Below are positions 2,356 to 29,523 of a stretch of DNA of 64,000 nt, piece after piece. A program made the position numbers and the translations under genes. Origin of the DNA: Ruegeria lacuscaerulensis ITI-1157. GTDB taxonomy: Bacteria > Pseudomonadota > Alphaproteobacteria > Rhodobacterales > Rhodobacteraceae. The first letter of the stretch is position 1. Each line of letters begins with the position of its first letter. Where the stretch lies: positions 1,697,593-1,761,592 of the forward strand of contig GG704596.1 of assembly GCA_000161775.1 (NCBI GenBank), in the 5' to 3' direction. The notes below the pieces were generated by a model. The model ran no database searches. It had not been told where the DNA came from and was given only the letters and a program-made list of their open reading frames with translations.

Positions 2356-2404
2356 CGCGCTGTGGCGAGGAACGGGCGCAGCCCAAGGACGAGAAGGATA
2401 TGAC

Positions 2405-10075: not shown

Positions 10076-11026
10076 ATGAACAAACTGACCATGCTGCTTG
10101 GAGGCGCATCGATGGCGCTTGCCGCGCCGGCCTTGGCTGCCGATGTGGTGATCGGCGTACCGAACTGGCCTTCGGTGAACGCAACGGCGCACATCCTCAA
10201 GGTCGCAATCGAGCAGAATCTCGGGCTCGAGGTTGAACTGCAGAACGGCACCAACCCGATCGTCTTCGAGGCAATGGATTCAGGCGCCATGCATGTGCAC
10301 CCCGAAGTCTGGCTGCCCAATCAGCAGAACCTGCACGACACCTACGTCAAGGAGAAGGGAACCGTGGCCTTGAACCCCAACGGGGTCGAGGCCTTCCAGG
10401 GCATGTGCGTCGACAAGGCCACCGCTGACGCCAACGGGATCACCTCGATCGACGATCTGACCAATCCCGACATCGCGGCGCTGTTTGACAGTGATGGCGA
10501 TGGCCAGGGCGAGCTGTGGATCGGTGCGCCGGGCTGGGCCTCGACCAATGTCGAAAAGATCCGCGCCAAGTCCTACGGCTATGACCAGGTGTTCGAACTG
10601 ACCGAGATCGACGAGACCGTGGCCTATGCCAATCTGGACAATGCGATCAAGGCCGGGAAGCCCTGGGTCGGGTTCTGCTATACGCCGCATTATGTTTTCC
10701 AGTTGCACGATCTGCAGGTTCTGGAAGAACCGCCCTATGACGCGGCCAAGTGGAAGGTCATCCAGCCGACCGACGACCCCGATTGGCTTGAAAAGTCCGA
10801 GGCCGGCGTGGCCTGGGACAAGGCCTATCTGCATCTGCACTATGCGAAGTCGCTGGAAAACGACTTTCCCGAAGTGGCCCGCATGCTGGCCAACATGAAG
10901 CTGACCACCGATCAGGTGTCCGAGATGACCTATGCGCTGGTGATCGATGAAAAGGACCCGCAGGCTTATGCCGAGGAGTGGGTTGCCGCGAATGAAGACG
11001 CGGTCCTGGGCTGGATGTCCGAGTGA
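10076..11026 (+). CDS. Glycine betaine/quaternary amine ABC transporter substrate-binding protein
   Basis: This 316-residue periplasmic protein of the OpuAC/ProX family starts with a Sec signal peptide (cleavage near APALAAD, residue 22). Its mature part begins VVIGVPNWPSVNATAHILK. Tryptophans at 31, 79, 154 and 197 are spaced as in betaine-type binding proteins, where an aromatic cage holds a quaternary ammonium group. The substrate could be glycine betaine, choline, TMAO or another betaine. ATPase and permease genes follow. Downstream methylamine-type catabolic genes suggest the ligand is degraded rather than only stored as an osmolyte. GGAGAATTGTC precedes the ATG. Confidence 0.88.
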   Translation: MNKLTMLLGGASMALAAPALAADVVIGVPNWPSVNATAHILKVAIEQNLGLEVELQNGTNPIVFEAMDSGAMHVHPEVWLPNQQNLHDTYVKEKGTVALNPNGVEAFQGMCVDKATADANGITSIDDLTNPDIAALFDSDGDGQGELWIGAPGWASTNVEKIRAKSYGYDQVFELTEIDETVAYANLDNAIKAGKPWVGFCYTPHYVFQLHDLQVLEEPPYDAAKWKVIQPTDDPDWLEKSEAGVAWDKAYLHLHYAKSLENDFPEVARMLANMKLTTDQVSEMTYALVIDEKDPQAYAEEWVAANEDAVLGWMSE

Positions 11027-11050
11027 TCCGAGCACACGGAAGTTGAAACC

Positions 11051-11087
11051 AGAACAGGCCGCCGGACAGCTACTGGCGGCCTGTTCT
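11051..11087 (+). other. Intercistronic stem-loop after the binding-protein gene
   Basis: AGAACAGGCCGCC and GGCGGCCTGTTCT make a perfect 13-base stem with an 11-base loop between the binding-protein and ATPase genes. Such structures commonly stabilise the upstream message or attenuate read-through, so binding protein is made in excess of the membrane parts. That role is inferred here. Confidence 0.75.
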
Positions 11088-11104
11088 GCATCAAAGGGAC
11101 AGGT

Positions 11105-12142
11105 ATGACGGAAACAGTCGTTAAACTGACGGATGTGTGGAAAATCTTCGGTGCCCGCGCCGATGAGGCCATGGAAGCCGTCCGCACCGAGGGCATCGGC
11201 AAGCCCGAGGTTCTTGAAAGATTCAATTGCGTGGTCGGCGTGCAGGGCGCCACGTTCGAGGTGCCCCGGGGAGAAATCTTCTGCATCATGGGCCTGTCGG
11301 GGTCGGGCAAGTCCACGTTGGTGCGTCATGTCAACCGGCTGATCGAACCGACCGCGGGCAAGATCGAGATTCTGGGCCATGATGTCTCGAAGATCTCCGA
11401 GTCCGAGCTGCGTCGGATCCGCGCCCAGCAGATCGGGATGGTGTTCCAGCACATGGCGCTGATGCCGCACCGCTCGGTGCGCGACAACGTGGCTTATCCG
11501 CTTGAGATCCGCAAAGTCTCGAAATCCAAGCGCTGGGCAGTGTCCGATCACGCGCTGGGCCTGGTGGATCTGACCGGCTATGAGGACCGGCTGCCCAAGG
11601 AACTGTCGGGCGGGATGCAGCAGCGTGTGGGCATCGCGCGCGCACTGGCCTCGGACCCGGAAATCCTGTTGATGGACGAACCGTTCTCGGCGCTGGACCC
11701 GCTGATCCGGCTGCAATTGCAGGACCAGTTCAAGGCTCTGGTTGCGCAGCTGAAAAAGACCACGCTCTTCATCACCCATGACCTGGACGAGGCCATTCGC
11801 ATCGGCCACCGCATCGCCATCATGAAGGACGGTGTGATCGTCCAGATTGGCACGCCTGAGGACATCGTGATGAACCCGGCCGACGACTATGTGCGCGAGT
11901 TCGTGCAGGGCATATCCAAGCTGAAACTGGTCAAGGCGCATTCGATCATGGAGCCGTTGGAGAGCTACTCCGGCCCGCTGGACGACGCGCCGCGCGCCGA
12001 TGAGGGCGCAGACCTCGACCAGTTGATCGATCTGGCCGTGAACACCGAGCTTCCGGTGGTGATCACCGACGGCGGTCAGGATGTGGGCATCGTGACCAAA
12101 CCACGCCTGCTGCGCGGAATTCAGGGGGGCAAAAATGACTGA
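11105..12142 (+). CDS. Quaternary amine ABC transporter ATP-binding protein (ProV/OpuAA type)
   Basis: This 345-residue ATPase energises the betaine-type importer. It shows Walker A (GLSGSGKSTLV, about residue 64), the signature LSGGMQQRVGIARAL near 165, Walker B ILLMDEPFSALD near 187 and the switch histidine in LFITHDLDEA. The unusual N-terminal lead (VWKIFGARADEAMEAV) is typical of the ProV group. After the ABC domain only about 70 residues remain, ending in a CBS-like half (TELPVVITDGGQDVGIVTK), shorter than the tandem CBS of E. coli ProV. It overlaps the permease gene by 8 bases. Confidence 0.92.
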   Translation: MTETVVKLTDVWKIFGARADEAMEAVRTEGIGKPEVLERFNCVVGVQGATFEVPRGEIFCIMGLSGSGKSTLVRHVNRLIEPTAGKIEILGHDVSKISESELRRIRAQQIGMVFQHMALMPHRSVRDNVAYPLEIRKVSKSKRWAVSDHALGLVDLTGYEDRLPKELSGGMQQRVGIARALASDPEILLMDEPFSALDPLIRLQLQDQFKALVAQLKKTTLFITHDLDEAIRIGHRIAIMKDGVIVQIGTPEDIVMNPADDYVREFVQGISKLKLVKAHSIMEPLESYSGPLDDAPRADEGADLDQLIDLAVNTELPVVITDGGQDVGIVTKPRLLRGIQGGKND

Positions 12143-13724
12143 TGCAACCACGGAATTGAAAGTCACGGCCGCCTCCGACATCGAGGTGGACCGCGAGGCG
12201 CTGGATCGGTCGATCCACGAATTCGCAGGCCCCAATGGTGACTACTATGTCAACGCCTTTCACAAGATCCATGATGCGACCAGTCCGATCCCGAACACGT
12301 TCAACCTGTGGGCGGCGGTGCTGGGTCCGTTCTGGTCCGCCTCGCGGGCGATCTGGGGGATGTTCTGGACCTTCCTGATCCTTGAGATCATCGCCTGGGT
12401 GCAGATCGGGCGCGGGGCCTGGGGCAACCCGGGGGCCGATCTGGCCGAACGCGCGGCCCGTCAGCAGGAACGCGCAAACGAGTTGCTGGCCCGCGCGGCG
12501 GATGCAACCGAGAAGGCGGATATCGACCGGTTCACCAAGTTGGCCGCAAACATCCAGAAGGCGGCGGATGCCAGCATGGAAAAGGCGCAGGCCGCGCAGT
12601 CCGAGGCGCTGGGGATCATGATCACCGGCCTTCTGATGCTGTTGGTCTTCAAGCTGGTTCAGGGGCTATATGCCGACCGGGTCTATGAAAAGCAGTATTC
12701 GAACTGGCGCATCGACCCGGACGGGACCGAAAGCGGACGCTCGACACGCAACACCGTTCTGGGCGCGGTTCTGGTGGCAGCGATCGGCCCACTGATCGTG
12801 TACAAGTTCACAGTCAACGCCTCTCTTCCGCTGCTGGATGCGTTCCCTGAAAAGGAAACCTCGGCAATGATCCTGGGCGAGGGCAACGGTACGCTTTTTT
12901 CGGCCCTGGCCAACTGGATGGAGGCGCGGATCGACGCAGCCGCGGCCGCGGGAGGCGATGTCTTCGATGGAATTGTCGCCGGTGTCCGCTCGGTTCTGGA
13001 CGGGCTAACCGTGGCCCTGATCGGGTCGCCCTGGCCGGTGGTCATGCTGGTGATCTGCGTGACCGCGTGGCGCGCGGCGGGTCCGCGCGTGGCGATCTTC
13101 ACCGCCGCTTCGTTGGCCTATATCGCGTTGCTGGGCTATTGGGACGTGGCGATGGAGACGGTGGCACTGGTGGGCGCGGCCGTGCTGCTGTGCGTCACCT
13201 TCGGCATTCCGCTGGGCATCTGGTTCGGCAAATCGAAACGCGCCTATCGCGCGGCCGAACCGGTGTTGGATTTGATGCAGACCCTACCGGCCTTCGTCTA
13301 CCTGATCCCGATCATCGCCTTCTTCGGCACCGGCAACCCGCCGGGCATCCTGGCCACGATCATCTTTGGTATGCCGCCGGTGATCCGCCTGACGGCGCTG
13401 GGCATGCGCGGGGTGCCGGAAAGCATCAAAGAGGCCGCCGTGGCCTTTGGCGCCTCGAAATGGCAGTTGCTGAAGGACGTGGAAATCCCGCTGGCGCTGC
13501 CGTCGATCATGACCGGCGTGAACCAGACCATCCTGATGTGCCTGTCGATGGTCGTGATCATCTCGCTGATCGGCGGCGGGGGTCTGGGCAAGGAAATCCT
13601 TGAGGCGCTGCAATACGCGGCCAAGGGGCCGGGCTTGCTGGGTGGCTTTGCGATCCTGTTCCTGGCCATGGTCATGGACCGCATCGTGCAGGGCGCCTTC
13701 CGACGCGAAGACGAAAAGATCTGA
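12135..13724 (+). CDS. Quaternary amine ABC transporter permease with N-terminal extension
   Basis: This 529-residue protein is about 200 residues longer than standard ProW-type permeases. The C-terminal half (from about residue 290) is the permease domain with the EAA loop ESIKEAAVAFGASKWQLLKD. The N-terminal part has a hydrophobic segment at about 58-90, a charged Ala/Glu/Lys-rich helix at about 100-157 that looks coiled-coil, and another membrane segment at about 158-176. This extension may sense or regulate; nothing in the sequence proves it. The start codon lies inside the 3' end of the ATPase gene, which implies translational coupling. Confidence 0.9.
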   Translation: MTDATTELKVTAASDIEVDREALDRSIHEFAGPNGDYYVNAFHKIHDATSPIPNTFNLWAAVLGPFWSASRAIWGMFWTFLILEIIAWVQIGRGAWGNPGADLAERAARQQERANELLARAADATEKADIDRFTKLAANIQKAADASMEKAQAAQSEALGIMITGLLMLLVFKLVQGLYADRVYEKQYSNWRIDPDGTESGRSTRNTVLGAVLVAAIGPLIVYKFTVNASLPLLDAFPEKETSAMILGEGNGTLFSALANWMEARIDAAAAAGGDVFDGIVAGVRSVLDGLTVALIGSPWPVVMLVICVTAWRAAGPRVAIFTAASLAYIALLGYWDVAMETVALVGAAVLLCVTFGIPLGIWFGKSKRAYRAAEPVLDLMQTLPAFVYLIPIIAFFGTGNPPGILATIIFGMPPVIRLTALGMRGVPESIKEAAVAFGASKWQLLKDVEIPLALPSIMTGVNQTILMCLSMVVIISLIGGGGLGKEILEALQYAAKGPGLLGGFAILFLAMVMDRIVQGAFRREDEKI

Positions 13725-13732
13725 CGCGACAG

Positions 13733-13770
13733 CCGCCCCCCCCGGGTCACCCGTGGGGGCGGTTTCATTT
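13733..13770 (+). terminator. Intrinsic terminator after the transporter operon
   Basis: CCGCCCCC pairs with GGGGGCGG, enclosing a smaller GGGT/ACCC stem, followed by TTTCATTT. It lies between the permease stop and the ureohydrolase start, so the latter may depend on read-through or its own promoter. Confidence 0.75.
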
Positions 13771-13787
13771 CATGGCGGGGAGACACG

Positions 13788-14768
13788 ATGGCGGACCGCT
13801 ACGAACAATCCATGATGGACAACCTGTACTGGTGGGGCGTGCCCACCCTGTTCCGGTGCCCCCATGTGGGGCCGCAGGACCAGGATATCGCCCTTGTGGG
13901 CGTGCCGCACTCTGCCGGCAACGGCACCACCGAGCGCGACCAGCATCTGGGCCCGCGTGCGCTGCGTCATGTCTCGGCCGTGCAGCGCCGGGTGCATTCG
14001 CTGTTCCAGATCGATCCGTGGTCCAGCGCGCGCATCGCCGATGTGGGCGACGTGCCGTTCCCGCGCGCCAACGACAACGAAGACTGCATCGAGCGTATCA
14101 CCGCCTTCTACCGTGACATCGACGCCGCCGGGGCGCGGCCCGTGTCGGTGGGCGGCGATCACTCGATCACGGGCGGGATCGTGCAGGCGCTGGGCCGCGG
14201 CGAACTGGCGGGCGGGCAACCGGTCAGCTTTCTGCATCTGGATGCGCATACGGATGTGTTCACCAAGGTCGATCATTTCCTGGGGGCCAAGAAGTCCGCC
14301 GCGCATTGGGGGGCTTACCTGGCCGATCAGGGGCAGGTGGACCCGACCCGGTCGATGCAGATCGGGTTGCGGGGGCATCCGCGCAGCCTGGACTGGCTGC
14401 AGCCTTCATATGACTATGGCTACAACATCGTCACCATGCGCGAGTTCCGCCAGCGTGGCTTGGCCGACGTGGTGGCCCAAACGCGCGAGGTTCTGGGCGA
14501 CCGGCCGGTCTACATCACCTTCGATCTCGACTGTCTTGATCCGACCATCGCGCCGGGCGTGTCGAACCTGGAACCCGGCGAAAAGGGTTTTGACATCGAC
14601 GAGGCCGTGGGAATTCTGCATGCCGCGCGGGGGCTGAACATCGTCGGCGGCGATGTGGTCTGCATGATGCCGACCAAGGACAGCCCGAACAACATCACCG
14701 CGCTGACGGCGGCGGCGGTCATGTTCGAGATGATCTCGATGATCGCCGAAAATGTCGAGCGGGCCTAG
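13788..14768 (+). CDS. Ureohydrolase (agmatinase/guanidino-acid hydrolase family), copy 1
   Basis: This 326-residue arginase-superfamily enzyme splits a guanidino group to urea and an amine with two Mn ions. The ligand motifs are intact: GGDHSITGG near residue 122, LHLDAHTD near 152, and FDLDCLDPTIAPG near 246. General annotation would be agmatinase, but no polyamine genes are nearby; the setting is quaternary-amine uptake and demethylation. Guanidinobutyrase or another guanidino-acid hydrolase is equally possible. Its stop codon overlaps that of the opposed second ureohydrolase in a shared CTAG. The ATG follows GGCGGGGAGACACG. Confidence 0.85.
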   Translation: MADRYEQSMMDNLYWWGVPTLFRCPHVGPQDQDIALVGVPHSAGNGTTERDQHLGPRALRHVSAVQRRVHSLFQIDPWSSARIADVGDVPFPRANDNEDCIERITAFYRDIDAAGARPVSVGGDHSITGGIVQALGRGELAGGQPVSFLHLDAHTDVFTKVDHFLGAKKSAAHWGAYLADQGQVDPTRSMQIGLRGHPRSLDWLQPSYDYGYNIVTMREFRQRGLADVVAQTREVLGDRPVYITFDLDCLDPTIAPGVSNLEPGEKGFDIDEAVGILHAARGLNIVGGDVVCMMPTKDSPNNITALTAAAVMFEMISMIAENVERA

Positions 14769-15733
14769 CGCCGCGCGTCGATCGCCTGGGCCAGCACGCA
14801 CAGCAGTTCGAACATCAGCGAAATGCCCAGCCATGCGGTACCGCCCGCCGGGTCGAAGGGCGGCGAGACCTCGACCAGATCCGCGCCGACAAGGTTCAAT
14901 CCTTCCAGCTTGCGGATGACCTGCTGGGCCTGAAAGCTGTTGGGGCCGCCGATCTCGGGCGTGCCGGTGCCGGGGGCATGGGTCGGGTCCACGAAATCGA
15001 TGTCATAGGTGCAATAGCAGGGCGCGTCGCCGACGATGGAGCGGACCTCGGCCATGACATCGTCGATGCCGCGGTCGAACAGCTCTTCGATGCGGATGAT
15101 GCGGATGCCCTGCGCCTCGCCCCATTCGATATCCTCGGTGTTGTAGGCGGTGCCGCGAATGCCCACCTGCACGAACCGTTCGGGATCGACCAATCCTTCC
15201 TCGACCGCGCGGCGGAATGGGGTGCCATGGGTATATTTGTGCCCGCCGAAATAGCTGTCGAACAGGTCGGTATGGCTGTCGAACTGGATCAGCCCCAGCG
15301 GGCCGTCGCTGGCCAGCGCCCGCAGGACGGGCAGGGTGGTCAGGTGATCGCCGCCCGCCGTCAGGGGAACGATGCTGCGCAGCATCAGGTCGGTGTAGAA
15401 GCGGGTGACGCGATCCAGCGTATCCGCGATATCCACCGGGTTGGGCGGCACGTCACCCAGGTCGGCACAGTTGACCAGTTCGAACGGGGCAACCCCGGTC
15501 ACCGGGTTCATGGCGCGGATCATGGTGGACTGGTCGCGCAACTGCCGCGGCCCGTGCCGCGCGCCGGGCCGGTTGGTGGTGCCCCCGTCCCAGGGGATGC
15601 CGACCAGCCCAAGCTCGACCAGATCCATCCGATCGTCGTCCGCGGTCAGGGCCGGCAGACGCATGAAGGTGGGGACACCGGCAAAGCGCGCCAGCTGCAT
15701 CGCCGAGACGGGTTGAAAGAACGCATTTGCCAT
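14765..15733 (-). CDS. Ureohydrolase (agmatinase/guanidino-acid hydrolase family), copy 2
   Basis: This 322-residue arginase-superfamily enzyme has the ligand motifs TAGGDHLTTL, QFDSHTDLFDS (Ser in place of the common Ala in DAHTD) and YDIDFVDPTHAPG. It is clearly diverged from copy 1 and faces it, so this is not a recent tandem duplication; different substrates are likely. The N-terminus VSAMQLARFAGVPTFMRLP is typical of guanidino-acid hydrolases of proteobacteria. It lies downstream of the MttB-family gene on the same strand, 83 bases away, and may be cotranscribed with it. Confidence 0.83.
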   Translation of the reverse strand: MANAFFQPVSAMQLARFAGVPTFMRLPALTADDDRMDLVELGLVGIPWDGGTTNRPGARHGPRQLRDQSTMIRAMNPVTGVAPFELVNCADLGDVPPNPVDIADTLDRVTRFYTDLMLRSIVPLTAGGDHLTTLPVLRALASDGPLGLIQFDSHTDLFDSYFGGHKYTHGTPFRRAVEEGLVDPERFVQVGIRGTAYNTEDIEWGEAQGIRIIRIEELFDRGIDDVMAEVRSIVGDAPCYCTYDIDFVDPTHAPGTGTPEIGGPNSFQAQQVIRKLEGLNLVGADLVEVSPPFDPAGGTAWLGISLMFELLCVLAQAIDARR

Positions 15734-15816
15734 GAGGCCCCCTGTGTCGTCGTTTGCCCGAGCCTAGCGCCAAGCCCGCGTCAAAAACACCCGGTCCGCG
15801 ACACAACGGCGTCGGA

Positions 15817-17334
15817 TCAGGACAGAATCCGGAAATTGGCGCGGATCTCGGCCTCTTGTTCGGGGCTGAGGTATTGCGGGTGATGCGTGCGCAGGATCTC
15901 TCGCGCGCGGTCGCGGGCGGTGGACCAGGCATCGCGCGCGCCGCTGTCCTGCCAGCTGCGCGGCTCGGCCCGGTCGGCAAGGGCGGGGTAGAAATAGTCG
16001 CGCTCCATCGCTGCATGGGTGTGGGCGCTGCCCAGGAAATGGCCCTCGCCCAGAACCGACTGGCAGATCGCGTCAAAGCCTAGGTTTTCTTCGGTCACCT
16101 CGATCCCGCGCAGGGCGCGGTAGGTGTGCGAATGCATCTCGTCATCCAGAACGAACCCCTCGAAACTGACCCCCAACAGCGAGGCCGTCATGCCCGAGCT
16201 TTCGTAGATCAGGTTGCCCCCGGCCAGCGCGGCGGCCAGCGAGGTGATGCCTTTTTCAGCGCCGTATTGCGCGTCGATGGCCTTGGCATCGGTCATCGAA
16301 CAGGCCACGCCCGAGGGCAGCCCCAGCCAGTTGGTGATCTGGGCCGAGGCCGCGTTCAGCACGGCAGTTTCGCCGCTGCCGCCCGAAAAGGCACCGGTGC
16401 GCAGATCGATGATGAAGGGCCAGTTGGAAAACACCATGGGAAAGCCCGGCCGGATCGCGTTGACCATGACCAGGCTGGCCAGAGTTTCGGCCAGCGACTG
16501 GGTCAGAAACCCGGCCATGGTGGCGGGCGCGGTCGCCCCGGCCTGGGCTGCGGTGATGCAGGACATGGGGATGTTGTGCGCGATGCATTCATAGACCACG
16601 TCCACCGCATCTTCGCCGTATCGCAGGGGCGAGATCACCGGGCTGATATGCGCCTTCAGGAACGGGCGTTCCGCAAAGGTGCCCCGGCCTCCGGCGGCGA
16701 TGTCCAGCATCCGCACGATGGGCGCGACATGTTCGGCCAACGTGAACGAGGTCGCCACCGGTTTGGTGGTGTTCCGGATCAGCGCATAGGCGGTGTTCAC
16801 GTCCAGATCGAAATTGTCCGGCACGTCGGTGGCGACGCAGCATCGGGTGAACCAGCTGACATTGGCCAGCGTGTCCTGAAGGCGGGTGAAATCATGCAGA
16901 TCGGCCAGCGTCGACGGGCGATAGAGCCCGCTGTCCAGGTCCAGCGTCTGCACCGCTGCGCCGCCAGTGCCGAAATACACGCGGTCGCCGCCCACCTCGA
17001 TCGACCGGGCCGGGTCGCGCCCGTGCAAGGTGAACCGTTTGGCGGCCTGCCGGACCGCGCCTTCGACCATCGCTCGAGGAAATACCAGCCGCCCCGGCGG
17101 ACCGGGCCGCGCGCCAGCGGCGATCAGGTCCTGTGCCAGGCGGTCGGGCACTTCGCCCATGCCCAGCGTTTCCAGCAGGCGCAGGGCGGTGTCGTGGATC
17201 GCCGCGATCTCGGGCGGGGTCAGGGGTTTGTACTGCCCACCGATCTGGCCGGGCGGGCAGGGGTCAAAGGCCGGTTTGGCCGCCCGTTGCGCCAGCCTGG
17301 CGCGCCGCCCGCCGCGTTTGCCCCGTTCTGGCAT
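15817..17334 (-). CDS. MttB-superfamily (trimethylamine/betaine) methyltransferase, non-pyrrolysine type
   Basis: This 505-residue protein is of the trimethylamine methyltransferase (MttB) superfamily. Members move a methyl group from a quaternary or tertiary amine to a corrinoid protein. Family landmarks include PRAMVEGAVRQAAKRFTLHGRD, YFGTGGAAVQTLD, RCCVATDVPD, AFSGGSGETAVLNAA and the C-terminal GEGHFLGSAHTHAAMERDYFYP. No in-frame TAG occurs, so it is a non-pyrrolysine member, as in glycine-betaine methyltransferase MtgB. No corrinoid protein or second methyltransferase lies in the window. The true methyl donor is unknown; the neighbouring betaine-type importer and DMGDH-like gene suggest a betaine. 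Confidence 0.85.
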   Translation of the reverse strand: MPERGKRGGRRARLAQRAAKPAFDPCPPGQIGGQYKPLTPPEIAAIHDTALRLLETLGMGEVPDRLAQDLIAAGARPGPPGRLVFPRAMVEGAVRQAAKRFTLHGRDPARSIEVGGDRVYFGTGGAAVQTLDLDSGLYRPSTLADLHDFTRLQDTLANVSWFTRCCVATDVPDNFDLDVNTAYALIRNTTKPVATSFTLAEHVAPIVRMLDIAAGGRGTFAERPFLKAHISPVISPLRYGEDAVDVVYECIAHNIPMSCITAAQAGATAPATMAGFLTQSLAETLASLVMVNAIRPGFPMVFSNWPFIIDLRTGAFSGGSGETAVLNAASAQITNWLGLPSGVACSMTDAKAIDAQYGAEKGITSLAAALAGGNLIYESSGMTASLLGVSFEGFVLDDEMHSHTYRALRGIEVTEENLGFDAICQSVLGEGHFLGSAHTHAAMERDYFYPALADRAEPRSWQDSGARDAWSTARDRAREILRTHHPQYLSPEQEAEIRANFRILS

Positions 17335-17411
17335 CTCCGAAGGCTCCTGATCCGATCCTGCCCTGCAGGGTACGCGGCAACGCGGGGTGCGGCCAAAGCG
17401 GAAATGCCGTT

Positions 17412-17425
17412 TTGAGAAATCTCAA
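17412..17425. promoter_or_regulatory. Palindrome between divergent methyltransferase and flavoprotein genes
   Basis: TTGAGA-AA-TCTCAA has perfect 6-base arms and sits in the 185-base divergent promoter region. A TTTCGAT half-site follows at 17432-17438 and matches an arm of the repeat before the LysR gene. It is a plausible operator. Confidence 0.45.
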
Positions 17426-17519
17426 TCCCCGTTTCGATTTTTCGGGACCGGCCACTGCGCCATTGCCCGCCCGGTGCGCCGTTCGGCAGGGTTCGGGCGA
17501 CGTCAGAAGGAGCACACCC

Positions 17520-19955
17520 ATGAAATCGCGCACCAAGGTCGTGGTGATCGGCGGCGGAATCGCCGGCTGTTCAACCCTGTATCACCTGACGCAGGAAGGC
17601 TGGAGCGACGTGGTTCTGGTAGAGCGCAACGAGCTGACATCCGGCACCACATGGCATTCGGCCGCGCAGGTGACGAATTTCGGAATGAACCAGACGATGG
17701 TGGGGCTCAAGTCGCATTCGATCCGCCTGTACAAGGAACTGGCCGAGGACCCGGACTATCCGATCAACTACCATCATGGCGACGGTGGCATCCGGTTGGC
17801 CAATACCGAAGCGCAGATGCAGGGCTATCGCCATTTCGCGTCGATGGCGCGAGGGATGGACGTGCATTTCGAGGTGATCGACGCACAGGAATGCGCACGT
17901 CGCCACCCGCTGATCTCCACCGACAATCTGCTGGGCGGGTTGTGGGATCCGCTGGACGGAGACATTGATCCCGCCCAGCTGTGTCAGGCGCTGGCGCGGC
18001 GGGCGCGCAAGGCCGGGGCCGAGGTTTATCGCAACACGCCGGTCACGGCCCTGACCCAGCACAAGGACGACACCTGGACCGTTCATACCGAGCACGGCGA
18101 CATCGACTGTGACATCGTGGTGAATGCCTGTGGCTACCGCGTGAACGAGGTTGGCGCGATGATGGGCGTGCACCATCCCGTGGCCTCGATGGAGCACCAG
18201 TATTTCCTGACCGAGGAAATCCCCGCGATCCGCGATGCCGGCCACCGCATGCCGCTGCTGCGCTGCCCGATCAGCGATTACTACTGCCGGCAGGAAAAGA
18301 ACGGGCTGCTGTTGGGCTTCTACGAACAGGACTGCAAGACCTGGGGCATGGACGGGATCGACCCGAACTTCGTCAATGCGCTGTGTCCGGACGATCTGGA
18401 TAGGGTGACCGATGTGCTGGAAGGCGCGTTTGCCCGCATGCCCGCGCTGATGGAGGCCGGGATCCACACGGTCGTCAACGGCCCGATCACCTATACGATC
18501 GACGGCGCGCCTCTGGTCGGGCCAATCCCCGGCAAGCGCAACGCATTCTGCATCATCGGGCTGCGGGCCGGGCTGGGCGAGGGGGGCGGCCACGGCTGGC
18601 TGCTGGCCCAGCAGATCGTGCATGGCGAGGCCTGTTATGACACCTGGTGCCTCGACCCGCGACGGTTCGCCAGGCATGCCAATGTCGAGCTGACCGCGCT
18701 GAAGGCGATCGAGGATTACCAGAACGAGTTCCGCTTTCACTTTCCGCACGAACACCGCCCCGCCGGGCGGCCCGCCAAAACCACGCCTCTGACCCCGGTT
18801 CTGGCCGCCGAAGGCGCGGAATTTACCGTGGTGAATGGGTGGGAACGGGTCGAGTACATAAAGCCCGCGCCCGATTTCACACCGACGCTCAGTTTCGATT
18901 TTGACGAAACCTTCGACGTGATCGCCGCCGAGGTTGCCAATGTGCAGCAGAATGTCGGGCTGGCCGAAGTCAACGGGTTCAACCGGATCGAGATCACCGG
19001 TGCCGACCGGCATGCATTCCTCGACCGGATGATCTGCGGCGCGCTGCCTCGTCGCCCGGGTCGGGTGGGGTTGGCCTATCTGCTGAACCTTCAGGGTATG
19101 GTCAAGGCCGAGGCGACCATCGCAAATCTGCCCGCCAGTGACCGGGGGCCGGATCGGGTTTGGTACGGCTCGGCCGCAGCGGCCGAACTGCATGACATGG
19201 ATTGGTTGTCCCGGCACATCGCCCCCGACGAGGACGTGCAGTTGCGTAGCCTGACCAACGACCAGACCATCCTGGTTCTGGCCGGGCCACGGGCGCGTGA
19301 CGTGCTGTCGGCCTGTTCGCGCGGGGATTGGTCGCGGGACGCCTTCCCGTGGCTCAGCGTGCGCGAGTGCTGTGTCGGGATCGCGCCTGCCACCGTGATG
19401 GGCGTCAGTTTCTCGGGCGAGCTGGCCTATGAGATCCATGTACCTAATGCCTCGCTCTATGCGGCCTACCTTGCGCTGCGACAGGCTGGACAGGCCTTTG
19501 GCCTGCAACTGTTCGGCGCGCGGGCGGTCGAGTCGATGCGGATGGAGAAGACTTTCCTGCATTGGAAGGCCGACCTGATCACCGAGTTCGACCCATTCGA
19601 AACCGGGCTGCACCGCTTTGTTCGGCTGGACAAACCGCAGTTCATCGGGCGCGCGGCGCTGATCGAACGGCAGGCCAAAGGGCCGTCGCGCAAGCTGGTT
19701 GCCCTGCAAGTGCAGGCCACGCACGCGCCCGCGCATCCGGGTGCGTCGTTGATGGCCGAGGATCGGGTGGTGGGAACGGTGACTTCTGGCGACTGGGGGC
19801 ATCGCACCGGGCTGAACTTGGCGCATGCCTTTGTCGAGCCGCACCTTTCAGCCGAGGGCAGCGAGATGATGCTGGACCTGTGCGGCGACAGGGTTCCAGC
19901 GCGGGTGATCCCTGCTTGCCCCTACGATTTCGACTTCACCCGCATGCGCAGCTAA
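17520..19955 (+). CDS. FAD-dependent demethylating dehydrogenase, DMGDH/sarcosine dehydrogenase-like
   Basis: This 811-residue protein pairs an N-terminal FAD-binding DAO domain (VVVIGGGIAGCSTLYHLT, residues about 6-23) with a C-terminal folate-binding GcvT domain from about residue 440. SGTTWHSAAQV near residue 45 matches the segment holding the covalent-FAD histidine in dimethylglycine dehydrogenase. Such enzymes oxidise N-methyl groups of dimethylglycine or sarcosine and can pass the carbon to tetrahydrofolate. The ATG follows AGAAGGAGCACACCC; the open frame upstream lacks homology. It is divergent from the MttB-family gene and fits a stepwise N-demethylation route. The exact substrate is not evident. 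Confidence 0.87.
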   Translation: MKSRTKVVVIGGGIAGCSTLYHLTQEGWSDVVLVERNELTSGTTWHSAAQVTNFGMNQTMVGLKSHSIRLYKELAEDPDYPINYHHGDGGIRLANTEAQMQGYRHFASMARGMDVHFEVIDAQECARRHPLISTDNLLGGLWDPLDGDIDPAQLCQALARRARKAGAEVYRNTPVTALTQHKDDTWTVHTEHGDIDCDIVVNACGYRVNEVGAMMGVHHPVASMEHQYFLTEEIPAIRDAGHRMPLLRCPISDYYCRQEKNGLLLGFYEQDCKTWGMDGIDPNFVNALCPDDLDRVTDVLEGAFARMPALMEAGIHTVVNGPITYTIDGAPLVGPIPGKRNAFCIIGLRAGLGEGGGHGWLLAQQIVHGEACYDTWCLDPRRFARHANVELTALKAIEDYQNEFRFHFPHEHRPAGRPAKTTPLTPVLAAEGAEFTVVNGWERVEYIKPAPDFTPTLSFDFDETFDVIAAEVANVQQNVGLAEVNGFNRIEITGADRHAFLDRMICGALPRRPGRVGLAYLLNLQGMVKAEATIANLPASDRGPDRVWYGSAAAAELHDMDWLSRHIAPDEDVQLRSLTNDQTILVLAGPRARDVLSACSRGDWSRDAFPWLSVRECCVGIAPATVMGVSFSGELAYEIHVPNASLYAAYLALRQAGQAFGLQLFGARAVESMRMEKTFLHWKADLITEFDPFETGLHRFVRLDKPQFIGRAALIERQAKGPSRKLVALQVQATHAPAHPGASLMAEDRVVGTVTSGDWGHRTGLNLAHAFVEPHLSAEGSEMMLDLCGDRVPARVIPACPYDFDFTRMRS

Positions 19956-20045: not shown

Positions 20046-21017
20046 GTGTCCAAAACACTGAGCCTGCGCTGGTTGGAAGTGTTTCGCCTGATCGCCAAGT
20101 CCGGTTCGATCCAGCAGGTGGCCTCGGAAACGGGTTTGTCGATCAGCACTGTTTCCAACCATCTTCGCAGCCTGGAAGACGCCCTTGGCATCGCATTGGT
20201 GGATCACGGTCGTCGTCCGATGAGCCTGACACCGGCTGGCGAGGTATTTTCGCGTTATGTACGGGATGGCCTGACCGTGTTGAAGCGGGGCGAGGCCGAG
20301 ATCCGGTCCGGCAACTGGCGCCACGCCACCGATCTGCGGCTGGCCCTGGTGGATGATTTCGACAACCAGATCGCGCCTGAACTGATCCGGTTCCTTGCCC
20401 ATGCGCTGCCGCGCTGCAATTTCCGACATTTCACACGGCCCAGCCACGAAATCATCGAGAAGTTGCAGGAGCACAAGCTGGACGCAGGTGTGGCGACCCG
20501 ACCGCCGGGCGGCACACAGGGGCTGATCGAGTATCCGCTTCTGCGTGATCCGTTCATCGTGATCGTTCCCGAGAAGTTCAAGGGAGACATTCAGGACCTG
20601 TTCTCGCCCCATTCCGACTTGCCGCTTCTGCGGTATTCGCGTGACTACACGATCGGCAAGCAGATCGAGATCCAGCTCACGCGCAACAAGTACAACCTGC
20701 CCAACCGGTTCGAGCTGGAATGCAACCAGTCGATCATGGGTCTTGTCGCCGAAGGCAGCGGGTGGGCGATCACGACGGCCGGGTGCTTCCACCGGGCGCA
20801 TCGCTATCATGACTCGGTCCGGGCCACGCCTTTTCCGGGTCGGAACTTCGTGCGGACCGTTTCCCTGTTCACGACCGAGGTCTATCCGGACACCACCTCA
20901 AAGCTGATCCACAAGGCCCTCAGCAGCTTGATCCGTCAGTATTTCACCGAGCCGATGTGCAAACGGCATTTGTGGCTGAAAGGTGATTTCCGCACGATGG
21001 AGGAGCAGGCGGCCTGA
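20046..21017 (+). CDS. LysR family transcriptional regulator
   Basis: This regulator of about 323 residues has an N-terminal winged helix (LSLRWLEVFRLIAKSGSIQQVASETGLSISTVSNHLRSLEDALG) and a C-terminal effector domain. A GTG start is chosen because GGGAGG lies 9 bases upstream; an earlier in-frame start would run through the palindrome. It follows the DMGDH-like gene on the same strand by 90 bases and probably regulates the methylamine/betaine genes and itself. It ends 9 bases from the converging LacI gene. Confidence 0.85.
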   Translation: MSKTLSLRWLEVFRLIAKSGSIQQVASETGLSISTVSNHLRSLEDALGIALVDHGRRPMSLTPAGEVFSRYVRDGLTVLKRGEAEIRSGNWRHATDLRLALVDDFDNQIAPELIRFLAHALPRCNFRHFTRPSHEIIEKLQEHKLDAGVATRPPGGTQGLIEYPLLRDPFIVIVPEKFKGDIQDLFSPHSDLPLLRYSRDYTIGKQIEIQLTRNKYNLPNRFELECNQSIMGLVAEGSGWAITTAGCFHRAHRYHDSVRATPFPGRNFVRTVSLFTTEVYPDTTSKLIHKALSSLIRQYFTEPMCKRHLWLKGDFRTMEEQAA

Positions 21018-21026
21018 CTGCTCCGC

Positions 21027-22046
21027 TCAGGGGGCTGGGCTCAGCGACTGCCGCTCGACAATATGCGTGTGCAGGCGTTCGCCGGTTCCGGGGGTGCTGT
21101 GTTCTACCATTTCGATCAGCGCCCTCGCGGCCTTTCCACCCATCTCGCGATGCGGCACATGCACGGTGGTCAGGCCCGGGCGGAGAAGCCGCGCCAGTTC
21201 GATGTCATCGAACCCGGTTATCGAGACATCCTGCGGCACCTTCAGCCCCATGTCCTGCGCCCTGAGCAGCGCTCCGGCGGCCAGAACGTCGTTGCCGCAC
21301 ATCACTGCGGTTGGTGGCGTGTCCTGCGACATCAGGCCTGAAAACGCCTCGGCCCCGTTTTCGATTTCGTACGGAGTTTCGACCACCTGCAGCGCGGCGG
21401 GGTCCAGTCCGTGATGCCGGATCGCGTCTCGTGCCCCCTCAAGCCGCAGCCGGGCCCGGTCGTTTCCGCGGGTGATGCCGGAAATCATTGCCAGCCGCCG
21501 ATGCCCCAGGCCGATCACTTTGCAGGCCAGGTCGAACATGGCCTGCCGGTTGTCGAACCCGATCGAGGGCAGCTTGCCCTCGGCGGCAAAGGACCAGGCC
21601 ACAAGGGCCGGAATCTGGCGCTGTTCCAGAAAGTCGTAGATATGCGGCGCGCGGTCATGCCCGATCAGCAACAGCCCGTCGGCACCGCGCGCGACCAATG
21701 TGCGGATCTGTTCCTCTTCGGTCTCGGGTTTGTAGGCCGAACTGGACACCAGCAGGGTATAGCCGTGTTTGCGCAGTTCTTCCTGAAACGCCTGCAGGCC
21801 GCGGGCAAAGATGGCGTTGTCCATCGTCGGGATGATCGCCCCGATGGTGAAGGTGCGCTTGGCCGCCATGACGCGGGCCGCGAAATTCGGTGTATAGCCT
21901 AGGGCCTCGATCGCCGATTGCACACGTTTGCGGGTCGCTTCGACCACTCGGTCCGGCGTGTTGATGCAACGCGAAACCGTCGCCGTGGACACGCCCGCCT
22001 GTTTGGCGACGTCGTCCAGTGTCGGGGCGGGCTTCAGCTTCGACAT
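21027..22046 (-). CDS. LacI family transcriptional regulator of the sulfonate operon
   Basis: This 339-residue LacI/GalR repressor has the N-terminal HTH and hinge (TLDDVAKQAGVSTATVSRCINTPDRV, then IEALGYTPN) and a periplasmic-binding-protein-like effector domain (FTIGAIIPTMDNAIFARG). It is divergent from the sulfonate operon, and two matching LacI-type operators lie between them. DHPS or a pathway intermediate as inducer is inferred from position. A GTG two codons upstream is an alternative start. Confidence 0.9.
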   Translation of the reverse strand: MSKLKPAPTLDDVAKQAGVSTATVSRCINTPDRVVEATRKRVQSAIEALGYTPNFAARVMAAKRTFTIGAIIPTMDNAIFARGLQAFQEELRKHGYTLLVSSSAYKPETEEEQIRTLVARGADGLLLIGHDRAPHIYDFLEQRQIPALVAWSFAAEGKLPSIGFDNRQAMFDLACKVIGLGHRRLAMISGITRGNDRARLRLEGARDAIRHHGLDPAALQVVETPYEIENGAEAFSGLMSQDTPPTAVMCGNDVLAAGALLRAQDMGLKVPQDVSITGFDDIELARLLRPGLTTVHVPHREMGGKAARALIEMVEHSTPGTGERLHTHIVERQSLSPAP

Positions 22047-22388: not shown

Positions 22389-23534
22389 ATGAACAAAGAT
22401 CAAATGGAGCTGGCGTCCGCTGAACGCCGCAATTTCCTGAAACTCAGTGCCAGTGGCGCGTTTACGGCCGCACTGGTGGCGGGCGCAAGCGGCGTGTTGT
22501 GGTCATCCGAGGCCGCGGCGCAGACCGCGAAGGAGGAAAAGGAGCGCGAGCAAGCTGCCGAGCATGTGATGACGGTGGCCACGGCCTATGTGCTGGGCGC
22601 CTCGCGCAGCTATCCGATCATGCAGCTGGACCTGAAAGAGAACATCCAGAACGCAACCAACGGCAAGGTCTATGTCAAGCTGGCCCCGGGCGGGCAGCTG
22701 GGCGCGGGCGGCGCGTTGGTGCAGAAGGTGCAGGGCGGAACCATCCAGGCCGCGCAACATTCGCTGTCGAACTTCGCACCCTTCGCTTCGACCGTGGACC
22801 TGATCAACATGCCGTATCTCTGCGGCTCGAACCAGCGGTTCACCAACCTGGTGCATTCCGACACCTGGAAGAACGAAGTACACCCCAAGGTCGAGGCCGC
22901 AGGCTTCAAGGCGCTGTTCTATGTCGTGATCGACCCGCGCGTCGTGGCCGTGCGCCAAGGCGGAAATGCCGTCATCACCCCCTCGGACATGAGCGGGATC
23001 AAATTCCGCGTGCCCGGGTCCAAGATGCTGCAGCAATATTATCGCATGGTCGGTGCCAACCCGACGCCCGTTGCGTGGGGTGAGACCCCCTCGGCCATCA
23101 AGCAGGGCGTGGCGGATGCGCTCGACCCGTCGGTCGGCGCGCTCTATGTGTTTGGCTTCAAGGACATTCTGTCTCACGTCACCTTCACCCAGGCGGTGCC
23201 GGACAGCCAGGTCTATTCCTGCAACCTGGAATGGTTCAACTCGATGCCGGCCGACGTGCAGGAGGGCATCATGTGGGGATCGGAGATGACCGGACACCAG
23301 AACCTTGCCAAGGTCCCATCCGCCCGCGCCTATGCCATGGCCGAGCTGAACAAGGCCGGGGTTCAGTTCCACTCGCTGACCGACGACCAACTGGCCGAGT
23401 GGCAGGAGGCTGGCGGTTACCAGCGCCCGGAATGGGACCCCTTCAAGACCGAGCTGGCCGGGTCGATGGACGCCTTCGAAAAGCTGGTCGAGGCGGCCGG
23501 CACCCAAGGCAAATACTACGTCCACGACGCCTGA
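22389..23534 (+). CDS. hpsK: TRAP transporter substrate-binding protein, DHPS-type
   Basis: This 381-residue DctP-family periplasmic binding protein captures a small anion for TRAP uptake. Its leader has ERRNFLKLSASG at about residues 12-23, a twin-arginine (Tat) signal, followed by a hydrophobic stretch ending ASGVLWSSEAAAQ. Family parts include GGTIQAAQHSLSNFAPF and SDMSGIKFRVPGS. The next genes are DctQ- and DctM-type, and HpsN follows, so the ligand is very probably 2,3-dihydroxypropane-1-sulfonate. The name follows the hpsKLM usage for DHPS importers. GGGAGGG precedes the ATG. Confidence 0.82.
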   Translation: MNKDQMELASAERRNFLKLSASGAFTAALVAGASGVLWSSEAAAQTAKEEKEREQAAEHVMTVATAYVLGASRSYPIMQLDLKENIQNATNGKVYVKLAPGGQLGAGGALVQKVQGGTIQAAQHSLSNFAPFASTVDLINMPYLCGSNQRFTNLVHSDTWKNEVHPKVEAAGFKALFYVVIDPRVVAVRQGGNAVITPSDMSGIKFRVPGSKMLQQYYRMVGANPTPVAWGETPSAIKQGVADALDPSVGALYVFGFKDILSHVTFTQAVPDSQVYSCNLEWFNSMPADVQEGIMWGSEMTGHQNLAKVPSARAYAMAELNKAGVQFHSLTDDQLAEWQEAGGYQRPEWDPFKTELAGSMDAFEKLVEAAGTQGKYYVHDA

Positions 23535-23630
23535 TGCGGACCGGGCGGGCGCCGGACGCGTGCCCGCCTTTTCCAGACCTGCACGGCCTGATCATTCAGG
23601 CCCATCCCCCCAGCCTTGCCGAGGGAAGCG

Positions 23631-24143
23631 ATGTCCTTACTCAGAACCATAGACCGCAACGCCGAACGCTGGCTGCTGCTGGTGTTCTACGTGATGCTGG
23701 TCATCACGATGGCGATCGAGGTGCTGCGGCGCGAGATCTTCGCCTATTCCTCGATCTGGGGTGAGGAGATCGTTCGCTATTCCTTCATCTATCTGGCCTG
23801 GATCGGCGCGGCGGCGGCGGTCAGGGAACGCGCCCATATCCGGATCGACGTGATCATGCACTACCTCGGCCCGCGGCCCAAGGCGGTGCTGTATATCTTC
23901 GGTGATCTGGTGATGTTCGCGGTGGCGGTCATCGCGCTCTACTGGTCCTACGAGGCGGTGCATGTCTCGGCCAAGTTCGGCTCGGTCACCGACGGGCTGC
24001 GGATATCGAAGGTGTGGTTTCTGATGGCGGTGCCTACGGGCTTTGCCCTGATGATATGGCGACTGATCCAATCTTTGTTGAATGACATCAAAAGCCTGCG
24101 CGACGGCACGCCCGTCTTCGAAGGCGACAAGCTGTTTGACTGA
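23631..24143 (+). CDS. hpsL: TRAP transporter small permease (DctQ family)
   Basis: This 170-residue protein has four hydrophobic segments and the family motif WGEEIVRYSFIYLAWIGAAAAVRERAHIRID near residues 43-73. It is the small membrane subunit that pairs with the DctM protein encoded 11 bases downstream. The start was set at MSLLRTIDRN because GAGGGAAG lies just upstream. No rare features. Confidence 0.85.
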   Translation: MSLLRTIDRNAERWLLLVFYVMLVITMAIEVLRREIFAYSSIWGEEIVRYSFIYLAWIGAAAAVRERAHIRIDVIMHYLGPRPKAVLYIFGDLVMFAVAVIALYWSYEAVHVSAKFGSVTDGLRISKVWFLMAVPTGFALMIWRLIQSLLNDIKSLRDGTPVFEGDKLFD

Positions 24144-24154
24144 GGAGCGACCGG

Positions 24155-25483
24155 ATGCTGTGGAGTACCCTCAATCAAACGGTCGAACTGGGCTGGGATT
24201 TCTACCTGCCCGTGATCCTGTTCGTCGGCCTGATCGCGCTGGCGGTTCCGGTCTGGGCCGCGATCGGCTCGGCCGCGATCGTGATGCTGGTCATGTCGGG
24301 CGATCTGCCGCTGAGCCTTGTGGGCGAAAGCCTGTTCACCGGCATCGACGCCTTTGCCCTGACAGCGGTGCCGCTGTTCATCCTGACCGGTGACGTGCTG
24401 GTGCGCACCGGGCTGTCGCGCAAGTTTCTGGACGTGGCCGAGGCGCTGACCTGTTTTGCCAAGGGCGGGTTCGGCTCGGCCACGGTTCTGGTTTGCGGCA
24501 TGTTCGCGGCCATCTCGGGGTCTGACGCGGCGGGGGCGGCGGCGGTGGGTCGGATGACGATCGCCCGACTGGTCGAAAGCGGCTATCCGCGCCCCTATGC
24601 CTGTGCGCTGGTGGCGGCGGGGGCCTGTACCGGCATCCTGATCCCGCCTTCGATCGCCTATATCATCATCGGGCTCGTGCTGGGTATTTCGGCCTCGACC
24701 CTGTTTCTGGCCGCTCTGATCCCGGGGCTGGCGATCCTGATCTCGATCCTCGTGACCAACATCATCATGAACCGCCTCTATGCCTATGAGGGCGGCGGCA
24801 TGATGACCATGGGCGAGTGGGCCGCCAACCTTGGCAAGGCGCTGAAATCGGGCTGGTATGCGTTCATCGTGCCGGGCATCATCTTCTATGGCATCTTTTC
24901 GGGTCGCCTGACCCCGACCGAGGCGGGCGCGACCGCCGTTGTCGTCACCATCATCATGGGGTTCATCCTGCGCACGCTGACCCTGGCGGACTTCCCGTCG
25001 ATGCTGGTCAGCTCGGCCAAGGTGAACGGGGTGATCCTGCCGATCATCGCCTTCTCGGCCCCGCTGGCCGAGGCGCTGGCGATCATGGGCGTGCCGCAGG
25101 GCTTCGTGGCCTCGGTGACCTCGCTGACCGAGGATCCGTTCCTGCTCATCCTGCTGATGATCGGCATTCTGATCGCGGCCGGCTGCGTCATGGAGACGAC
25201 ACCGAATATCGTCATCCTGGCCCCGATCCTGAAACCGCTGGCGGACAATATCGGCATGAACGAGATCCAGTTCTGCATCATGATGATCACCGCGCTGGGC
25301 GTTGGCTTCATCACGCCGCCACTGGGGCTGAACCTGTTCGTGGTGTCGGGGATCACGGGTGAATCCATCCTCAAGATCGCAGCCCGCGCCGTGCCCTTCG
25401 TGCTGACCATGCTGATCGTCGTCATCCTGATCGCCTACGTTCCGGCGCTGTCGACCACCTTGCTTCCTGAAATCTACCAATAG
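24155..25483 (+). CDS. hpsM: TRAP transporter large permease (DctM family)
   Basis: This 442-residue, strongly hydrophobic protein is the Na+-coupled transport subunit. Family motifs include ISGSDAAGAAAVGRMTI, ACTGILIPPSIAYIIIG, IFSGRLTPTEAGATAV and FITPPLGLNLFVVSGI. With the small subunit and binding protein it forms the importer feeding the dehydrogenases downstream. GAGGAGCGACCGG precedes the ATG. Confidence 0.88.
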   Translation: MLWSTLNQTVELGWDFYLPVILFVGLIALAVPVWAAIGSAAIVMLVMSGDLPLSLVGESLFTGIDAFALTAVPLFILTGDVLVRTGLSRKFLDVAEALTCFAKGGFGSATVLVCGMFAAISGSDAAGAAAVGRMTIARLVESGYPRPYACALVAAGACTGILIPPSIAYIIIGLVLGISASTLFLAALIPGLAILISILVTNIIMNRLYAYEGGGMMTMGEWAANLGKALKSGWYAFIVPGIIFYGIFSGRLTPTEAGATAVVVTIIMGFILRTLTLADFPSMLVSSAKVNGVILPIIAFSAPLAEALAIMGVPQGFVASVTSLTEDPFLLILLMIGILIAAGCVMETTPNIVILAPILKPLADNIGMNEIQFCIMMITALGVGFITPPLGLNLFVVSGITGESILKIAARAVPFVLTMLIVVILIAYVPALSTTLLPEIYQ

Positions 25484-25495
25484 GATCTGCTGAAC

Positions 25496-29016: not shown

Positions 29017-29523
29017 ATGAACATAGACAAGAAGATCACCGAAGATCTGGTGGCCAACGACATCTCGTTCGTCACCACGGTGCCGTGCAAGCAACTGGCC
29101 GGCGTCATCGCCGAGATCGACGCCCACGACGCCATCTTTCACATCCCCTCGAACAAAGAGCACGAAGGCATGGGCCTGTGCGCCGGGGCCTTTATGGGCG
29201 GCAAACGCCCCGCGATCATCATGCAGAACACCGCGATCGGGGTCACGATCAACACGCTGGCGACGCTGATCCAGTATTACCGGATGCCGCTGCCGATGCT
29301 GATCTCGTACCGGGGCGAGCTGCGCGAGCCCATCGCCTGCCAGGTCGAGATGGCCGTTCACACAAAGGCCCTGCTGGCGCAGATGCACATCCCGACCTAC
29401 CATTTCCACCATCAACAGGACGTGGCCGAACTGGACGCGATCCTGAAATACACCTTCATGTGCAACAAGCCCGTCGCGATCCTGACCGACGCAAATTTCT
29501 GGGGAGGCTACGGCGACCAATGA
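29017..29523 (+). CDS. comD: Sulfopyruvate decarboxylase subunit alpha
   Basis: This 168-residue protein is the N-terminal (Pyr) half of a split thiamine-diphosphate decarboxylase. With ComE it converts sulfopyruvate to sulfoacetaldehyde and CO2. PSNKEHEGMGLCAGAFMGGK near residue 44 holds the conserved Glu that contacts the cofactor. The length matches the methanogen and roseobacter ComD. It overlaps comE by 4 bases (ATGA). The setting after the DHPS dehydrogenases supports the catabolic rather than coenzyme M role. Phosphonopyruvate decarboxylase is the nearest alternative. Confidence 0.87.
   Translation: MNIDKKITEDLVANDISFVTTVPCKQLAGVIAEIDAHDAIFHIPSNKEHEGMGLCAGAFMGGKRPAIIMQNTAIGVTINTLATLIQYYRMPLPMLISYRGELREPIACQVEMAVHTKALLAQMHIPTYHFHHQQDVAELDAILKYTFMCNKPVAILTDANFWGGYGDQ

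Follow-up and report, generated by a model that had tools for sequence, protein, structure and literature searches.

The closest described relatives of the system considered here are the ureohydrolases GpuA and GbuA of Pseudomonas aeruginosa, the ProXVW/TmoX-type importers of betaines and trimethylamine N-oxide, and the MtgB-MtgC-MtgD system of glycine betaine demethylation in Ruegeria pomeroyi. According to the accessible part of the Mtg study, the induced transporter is the BCCT-type OpuD and no ureohydrolase is named (PMC12478193). We analyzed a window of 64,000 nucleotides (positions 1697593-1761592 of contig C1) from the 3.5 Mb genome of a Ruegeria, where genes for an ABC importer (X, V and W, together XVW), two ureohydrolases (U1 and U2), a methyltransferase (M), a flavin- and folate-domain oxidase (D) and a LysR-type regulator (R) lie side by side. 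Tentatively, we read this locus as a module that takes up and degrades small zwitterionic guanidino acids and methylated amines. In its most defensible form, the proposal is that a small guanidino acid is imported and hydrolyzed, and that Ruegeria and several other lineages add to this a betaine-demethylation cassette, which is also found by itself.

An initial annotation had placed a betaine-type importer, two arginase-superfamily enzymes, an MttB-family methyltransferase and an oxidase resembling dimethylglycine dehydrogenase (DMGDH) between 10 and 20 kb, and Pfam and PDB matches confirmed that all are present. X, V, W and U1 are tightly packed on the plus strand (gaps of 78, -8 and 63 bp), with U1 directly after the transporter genes. 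U2 and M form a separate minus-strand unit with an 83-bp gap, and U1 and U2 meet tail to tail with a 4-bp overlap. Divergent from M across a 185-bp gap lies D, followed by R, both leading away from M. The open frame of D extends from 17133, but its protein probably starts at about 17517-17520, because homology and codon statistics begin there.

Both ureohydrolases carry the Pfam Arginase domain (212 bits for U1 and 289 bits for U2). Their scores against the NCBIfam agmatinase model are 122 and 163 of 174 bits, respectively, and no curated family names the substrate of either enzyme because neither reaches the NCBIfam cut-off. Across an alignment of 39 rows (31 of the U1 family and 8 of the U2 family), the metal ligands H125, D152, H154, D156, D246 and D248, together with E262 (U1 numbering), are invariant. 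With these ligands and the Glu kept, U1 and U2 are both predicted to be catalytically competent. The column of U1 Arg67, which corresponds to GbuA R72, holds Arg in 38 rows and Lys in one. In the accessible part of the published work, the R72 equivalent caps the anionic end of the substrate, and the human homologue, which hydrolyzes taurocyamine and guanidinobutyrate, depends on that anionic end for efficient catalysis (PMC9772407).

U1 and U2 share with GpuA and GbuA the fold, the metal ligands and the carboxylate-capping Arg. The match of U2 to GpuA spans the whole protein (396 bits, residues 1-317), and U1 matches GpuA with 184 bits and about 36% identity; a structure model of U1, silent on the ligand, is nearest to GpuA (TM 0.87). 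Unlike in the Pseudomonas enzymes, the substrate loop of U1 is altered and slightly extended, and two different ureohydrolases here stand beside a betaine-type importer. The U1 loop differs after the second metal motif, and Trp174 in the substrate-loop region is Trp in all 31 rows of the U1 family and Pro in all 8 rows of the U2 family. The catalytic-loop His of ureohydrolases acts as a proton shuttle; U1 His173 pairs with the loop His of GpuA in the HMMER alignment, and the MAFFT alignment is shifted by two places there. Tyr157 reportedly distinguishes GpuA from GbuA, and at this place U2 has Tyr and U1 has Phe. The term Tyr157 was not found in the accessible part of PMC9772407. Overall, U2 resembles an enzyme that hydrolyzes a short guanidino acid, and U1 is predicted to be a divergent member of the guanidino-acid hydrolases in which no metal ligand is missing.

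Two neighboring arginase-family genes also encode the metformin hydrolase MetCaCb/MfmAB, in which one subunit is a metal-free pseudoenzyme, as described in the accessible part of PMC11271267. A metformin-hydrolase-like pairing of U1 and U2 was rejected, as both retain all six metal ligands. The genome holds seven arginase-family genes in all, U1 and U2 among them. A second neighboring pair lies at G000:C1:2479794-2481622 (L001, L002 and L199); the arginase-pair region of L199 was mis-called by the gene caller.

The importer belongs to the same families as ProXVW and TmoX. X has an OpuAC domain (189 bits, Pfam), V scores 349 bits, above the proV cut-off of 326.6, and the permease domain of W covers residues 357-519. 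The aromatic cage of ProX consists of W65, W140 and W188. Among 22 aligned rows of X, two cage residues (W79 and W154) are invariant, while the third position is Tyr in 14, His in 6, Phe in 1 and Ala in 1. The structure model of X, which is silent on the ligand, shares the ProX fold and is nearest to TmoX and ProX, but X is only about 22% identical to the solved members, and its third cage position, mostly Tyr or His, departs from theirs. A close relative of the window, L035 (from 6284), encodes V, W, U1, U2, M and D that are 96-99% identical to those described here and a substrate-binding protein (SBP) that is only 68% identical; its SBP gene has been swapped and belongs to a clade with the CuyA/CuyB-linked SBPs of Marivita.

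M matches PF06253 (364.8 bits), the family of MtgB1 and MtgB2 according to the accessible part of PMC12478193. Its 505 codons contain no in-frame stop, it scores 332 bits against the Pyl-type model TIGR02369, under the cut-off of 525, and it is predicted to be a non-pyrrolysine member of the MttB superfamily. Its best PDB match is a glycine betaine methyltransferase. As in the Mtg system, to the extent described in the same part of that source, the genome encodes one PF02607 corrinoid protein, and D resembles the subsequent dimethylglycine/sarcosine step (PMC12478193). This genome also holds a second MttB homologue that is 43% identical to M, and M may correspond to MtgB1, to MtgB2 or to neither. 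D has the domain order DAO, FAO_M, GCV_T and GCV_T_C (Pfam) of the DMGDH/sarcosine dehydrogenase family, and its best PDB match is DMGDH (504 bits).

We searched for U1, U2, M, X and D in the same 148 genomes of the order, counting as orthologues the matches above clear identity gaps. U1 is present in 14 genomes (U1+), with no match between the 1e-60 threshold and 1e-183; beyond the order, in the wider taxonomic class, U1 relatives exist at 40-65% identity. Orthologues of X occur in 12/14 U1+ genomes versus 1/134 genomes without U1 (U1-), M in 13/14 versus 21/134, and D in 14/14 versus 54/134. Close U2 copies (at least 78% identity) occur in 5/14 versus 1/134, and the lone U1- copy (G034) reads through a TGA. 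Of the U1+ genomes, 6 have M near U1, and 7 of the other 8 still have it. At the level of genera, counted by hand, M is found in 7/8 U1+ genera versus 9/64 others. Co-conservation of the gene groups had been named beforehand as a test of the initial annotation's guanidino-betaine pathway, and the counts of X and M bear it out.

The surroundings of U1 were compared in 106 loci, or 96 distinct ones (25 Ruegeria-type and 71 others). Because only the best 80 of 214 relatives were kept, this sample leans to the closest relatives; among those 80, the closest match to U1 is that of Ruegeria arenilitoris HKCCA0515 (99%). The non-Ruegeria stretches span at least 15 kb in 50 of 71 cases and are shorter in 21. 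Nearly complete sets characterize the 25 Ruegeria-type loci (X in 25, U2 in 25, M in 23, D in 24 and R in 25), and the 71 others hold X in 29, U2 in 12, M in 8 and D in 8. W is directly upstream of U1 in 25/25 Ruegeria-type loci and 24/71 others. The Ruegeria order, XVW-U1/U2-M/D-R, gives way elsewhere to U1-U2/D/M-R (L063), to D/M/R-XVW-U1 (L029, L112 and L113) or to U1/M/D after a long catabolic operon (L028 and L065), and gene orders vary among the 8 non-Ruegeria loci with M. In the distant L185 (U1 at 62-63%), the order is aldehyde dehydrogenase, luciferase-like gene, PcaD, thiamine diphosphate (TPP) enzyme, D, CuyA, M, U1, DegT, CuyB and XVW, with 19 kb spanning the luciferase-like gene through XVW. 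These comparisons support a set that is co-conserved and recurs in several gene orders. The finding thus goes beyond chance proximity, since the gene set was observed correctly and its members are conserved together.

The long operon that runs into U1, and in L063 also into U2, lies at 2994-10499 in L028, 3449-11972 in L063 and 3482-10990 in L065. It encodes a flavin reductase, an aldehyde dehydrogenase, a luciferase-like oxygenase, an AA_synth protein, a PcaD-like hydrolase, an Xsc-like TPP enzyme and a small protein, presumably CMD-like. The TPP enzyme is not called Xsc because, though Xsc-like, it scores below the Xsc cut-off. The operon is reminiscent of the trigonelline route. Trigonelline and homarine were rejected as substrates: the luciferase-like gene is absent from the window's genome and from the other U1+ Ruegeria searched, with no tie to U1 there.

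A second form of the operon offers the best clue to the cargo of the transporter family. A DDAH-like gene lies near U1 in 11/71 non-Ruegeria loci, 9 of which also hold a binding protein of this importer family (X') and U2, and 7 of which hold a carbamoylase; the order is LysR, DDAH-like gene, carbamoylase, importer X'V'W', U1 and U2. The form with the carbamoylase was seen in L033/L105, L074, L078, L085, L098, L103 and L106 (Leisingera, Roseobacter and relatives), and L090 and L104 have the operon with no carbamoylase detected. The DDAH label is based on Pfam ADI and DDAH_eukar matches alone, and the one carbamoylase scanned passes the cut-offs of the allantoate amidohydrolase subfamily and of the hydantoinase/carbamoylase family. 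Close DDAH-like relatives (at least 85%) occur in 2/14 U1+ versus 1/134 U1- genomes. If the labels hold, all enzymes of this operon act on guanidino or ureido groups, which supports a guanidino compound as the probable cargo of the XVW family.

From gene content and order, family membership, intact metal sites and co-conservation, we infer a series of functional steps. XVW would import a guanidino acid and perhaps a quaternary amine acid as well. U1 and U2 would hydrolyze the guanidino group to urea and a free amine, with a short guanidino acid (3-guanidinopropionate or the isosteric taurocyamine) as the probable substrate of U2 and a related compound, in a different tail pocket, as that of U1. 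Like MtgB with glycine betaine, M would take one methyl group off a trimethylammonium acid and load it onto the PF02607 corrinoid protein of this genome, and D may strip the remaining methyl groups oxidatively, its GCV_T domain handing the one-carbon unit to folate. R may regulate the M-D portion. As the carbon product common to these steps, a short omega-amino acid of the taurine/beta-alanine or glycine series is most likely, rather than the ornithine betaine that arginine betaine would give; taurine- or beta-alanine-series compounds are the leading substrate candidates.

Several observations weigh against a single module. Among the 71 non-Ruegeria U1 loci, 42 have no X in the examined stretch, on contigs that are often short, and the DDAH-like gene has neither an NCBIfam family nor a PDB chain match at 1e-5. 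Two U1+ genomes (G010 and G017) lack an X orthologue, and in three others (G053, G082 and G139) X sits apart from U1, beside cysteate genes; X orthologues therefore need not share one substrate. Absences of D are less sure because its search scored only the best five candidates per genome, and the co-occurrence counts are uncorrected for ancestry beyond the genus-level table. The general catabolic richness of U1+ genomes may also contribute, because Xsc (14/14 U1+ versus 94/134 U1-) and the luciferase-like gene (5/14 versus 6/134, p 0.001) are commoner there too. In addition, DDAH-type loci hold U1 and U2 with no M nearby, and one such genome (G097) has no M orthologue. Finally, many genomes have M and D but none of U1, XVW and U2, so that the pair may serve glycine betaine or another betaine.

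These last points favor a catabolic island of two independent neighboring modules, one (XVW-U1-U2) acting on a guanidino acid and the other (M-D-R) on glycine betaine or a comparable betaine. M and D need no guanidino substrate, because M is found in the 21 U1- genomes, usually beside D; at 28 M loci away from U1 (L115-L142, from genomes of the order Rhodobacterales), D stands alongside in 24 and the LysR gene in 13. The window also runs straight into a third catabolic cluster. However, U1+ genomes carry M more often even where it is not linked to U1 (7/8 versus 21/134), and M, U1 and XVW, with D, reunite in differing orders in L028/L065, L029, L063, L112-L113 and L185. We regard independent modules as a serious possibility, though a doubtful one, and continue to prefer the joint uptake-and-degradation module.

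The third cluster, directly after the locus (window positions 22389-31186), is of the 2,3-dihydroxypropane-1-sulfonate (DHPS) type, with a tripartite ATP-independent periplasmic (TRAP) transporter, dehydrogenases and sulfopyruvate decarboxylase (Table 1); the initial annotation made no use of these organosulfonate genes. One dehydrogenase passes the histidinol dehydrogenase model TIGR00069 and is probably HpsN-like; we take the dehydrogenases of this cluster to be HpsN/HpsO/HpsP-like. We know of no ureohydrolase and no MttB enzyme in the known DHPS and cysteate routes. Clusters of these kinds (HpsNOP, ComDE, CuyA and CuyB) are adjacent to the locus in Ruegeria or share XVW in other genera. Among the 25 Ruegeria-type loci, five have sulfonate-type enzymes (L036, L040, L049, L053 and L057), the DHPS block of L057 being replaced by CuyA-, CuyB- and HpsN-like genes, and in another 18 the stretch breaks off with only the TRAP genes of the window's cluster in view. 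Where X orthologues lie away from U1 (L143-L146, from three Marivita genomes with U1 elsewhere and from G057, which has no U1), CuyA, CuyB and DegT accompany them in 4/4 loci. CuyA and CuyB of L144 and L185 exceed their NCBIfam cut-offs, and in the SBP tree the CuyA/CuyB-linked SBPs and SBPs from inside U1 loci, L035 included, form one clade (100/100). Because the DHPS cluster follows the locus and XVW elsewhere stands with CuyA/CuyB, the taurine/beta-alanine series (taurocyamine and taurine betaine) is at least as good a candidate as arginine betaine.

A sulfonate version of the locus would draw these neighbors together. XVW would import zwitterionic sulfonates, M and D would strip taurine betaine to taurine for the Xsc route, and U1 and U2 would convert taurocyamine, or the dimethylated asterubine, to taurine and urea or a methylated urea. 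In its favor are the adjoining sulfopyruvate decarboxylase cluster, its enzymes or TRAP genes in Ruegeria-type loci, the CuyA, CuyB and DegT genes at L143-L146, the union of CuyA, CuyB, M, D, XVW and U1 in L185, SBPs of the CuyA-linked clade inside U1 loci, and Xsc in every U1+ genome. The isosteric relation of 3-guanidinopropionate to taurocyamine, a substrate of the human homologue in the accessible part of PMC9772407, also fits. However, outside Ruegeria the sulfonate markers occur in 6/71 U1 loci versus 0/33 controls (28 M loci and 5 U2-like loci; Fisher p 0.17, not significant) and in 0/28 of the M controls, Xsc is also present in most U1- genomes, and TRAP genes per se are not sulfonate-specific. 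Consequently, we consider the sulfonate version unlikely, if worth keeping in view. Its fullest form is a dedicated marine guanidino-sulfonate and sulfobetaine pathway, in which one ABC importer family would take up taurocyamine, asterubine and taurine betaine, two guanidino-acid hydrolases would free urea, a new MttB-family enzyme would demethylate the sulfobetaine, and the route would end in taurine and Xsc; we think this pathway quite unlikely. No bacterial route of such a kind for taurocyamine or taurine betaine was found in the literature searched, including the accessible part of PMC9772407.

The DMGDH/sarcosine dehydrogenase-like character of D brings creatine and guanidinoacetate into consideration. 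A ureohydrolase would release sarcosine or glycine and urea, D would oxidize the sarcosine, and M and D would also handle glycine betaine; in DDAH-type loci, the DDAH-like deiminase and carbamoylase would yield the same amine by a ureido route. However, the methyl group of creatine sits on the nitrogen to be freed, M would have no role on creatine, and U2 is GpuA-like. We know of no ureohydrolase for creatine. This reading is accordingly improbable.

Arginine betaine, or another single compound with guanidino and trimethylammonium groups, would account for U1, M, D and XVW together and for the co-occurrence of U1 and M when unlinked; the Trp kept throughout the U1 family in the substrate-loop region could face a quaternary ammonium. 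The use of XVW-U1-U2 without M in DDAH-type loci, the absence of an M orthologue from G097 and the short-chain guanidino-acid type of U2 all count against it, and we hold it very improbable. We know of no sequence marker for arginine betaine catabolism. A literature search covering arginine betaine, guanidino compounds, taurocyamine and taurine betaine in bacteria, and MttB in Roseobacter returned no description of this locus and no occurrence of the phrase arginine betaine. Thus, the initial annotation's guanidino-betaine pathway holds in part, through the co-conservation, the link of U1 to M even when unlinked and the guanidino cargo suggested by the DDAH-type operon, but no result singles out the arginine betaine that it had put forward.

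Coordinates of the locus and of the genes that follow it are collected in Table 1. Upstream of the locus, at 316-3265 of the window, consecutive DUF1611, mandelate-racemase-family and class IV aminotransferase genes possibly form a dipeptide or D-amino-acid unit.

Table 1. Genes of the locus and its downstream neighbors, in window positions
Feature	Position	Strand	Assignment and remarks
X	10076..11026	+	ProX/OpuAC-type substrate-binding protein (SBP), ABC importer
V	11105..12142	+	ProV-type ATPase
W	12135..13724	+	ProW/ChoW-type permease, long N-terminal extension
U1	13788..14768	+	Divergent ureohydrolase (predicted)
U2	14765..15733	-	Ureohydrolase, nearest resemblance to GpuA (3-guanidinopropionase)
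M	15817..17334	-	MttB-superfamily methyltransferase, PF06253
D	~17520..19955	+	DMGDH/sarcosine-dehydrogenase-like flavin- and folate-domain oxidase
R	20046..21017	+	LysR-type regulator
LacI-type regulator	21027..22046	-	Between U1/M/D locus and next cluster
TRAP transporter DctP-DctQ-DctM	22389..25483	+	Neighboring cluster
Histidinol-dehydrogenase-family, short-chain (SDR) and alcohol dehydrogenases	25496..28534	+	Neighboring DHPS-type cluster
Sulfopyruvate decarboxylase alpha and beta	29017..30074	+	Alpha 147.6 bits (cut-off 147.95), beta 238.9 (cut-off 221.5)
FMN-dependent 2-hydroxyacid dehydrogenase, LldD-like	30074..31186	+	Possible sulfolactate dehydrogenase
Class III aminotransferase, omega-aminotransferase-like	31229..32620	-	

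Marine animals and algae are a source of guanidino acids and betaines, and to our knowledge the bacterial recycling of their nitrogen is poorly mapped. A conserved importer beside two hydrolases narrows the question to a short, testable list of substrates. The uptake-and-degradation module could give functions to roseobacter proteins that family models label as glycine betaine transporter, agmatinase and trimethylamine methyltransferase, and it would connect urea release with methyl-group metabolism and possibly with sulfonate metabolism.

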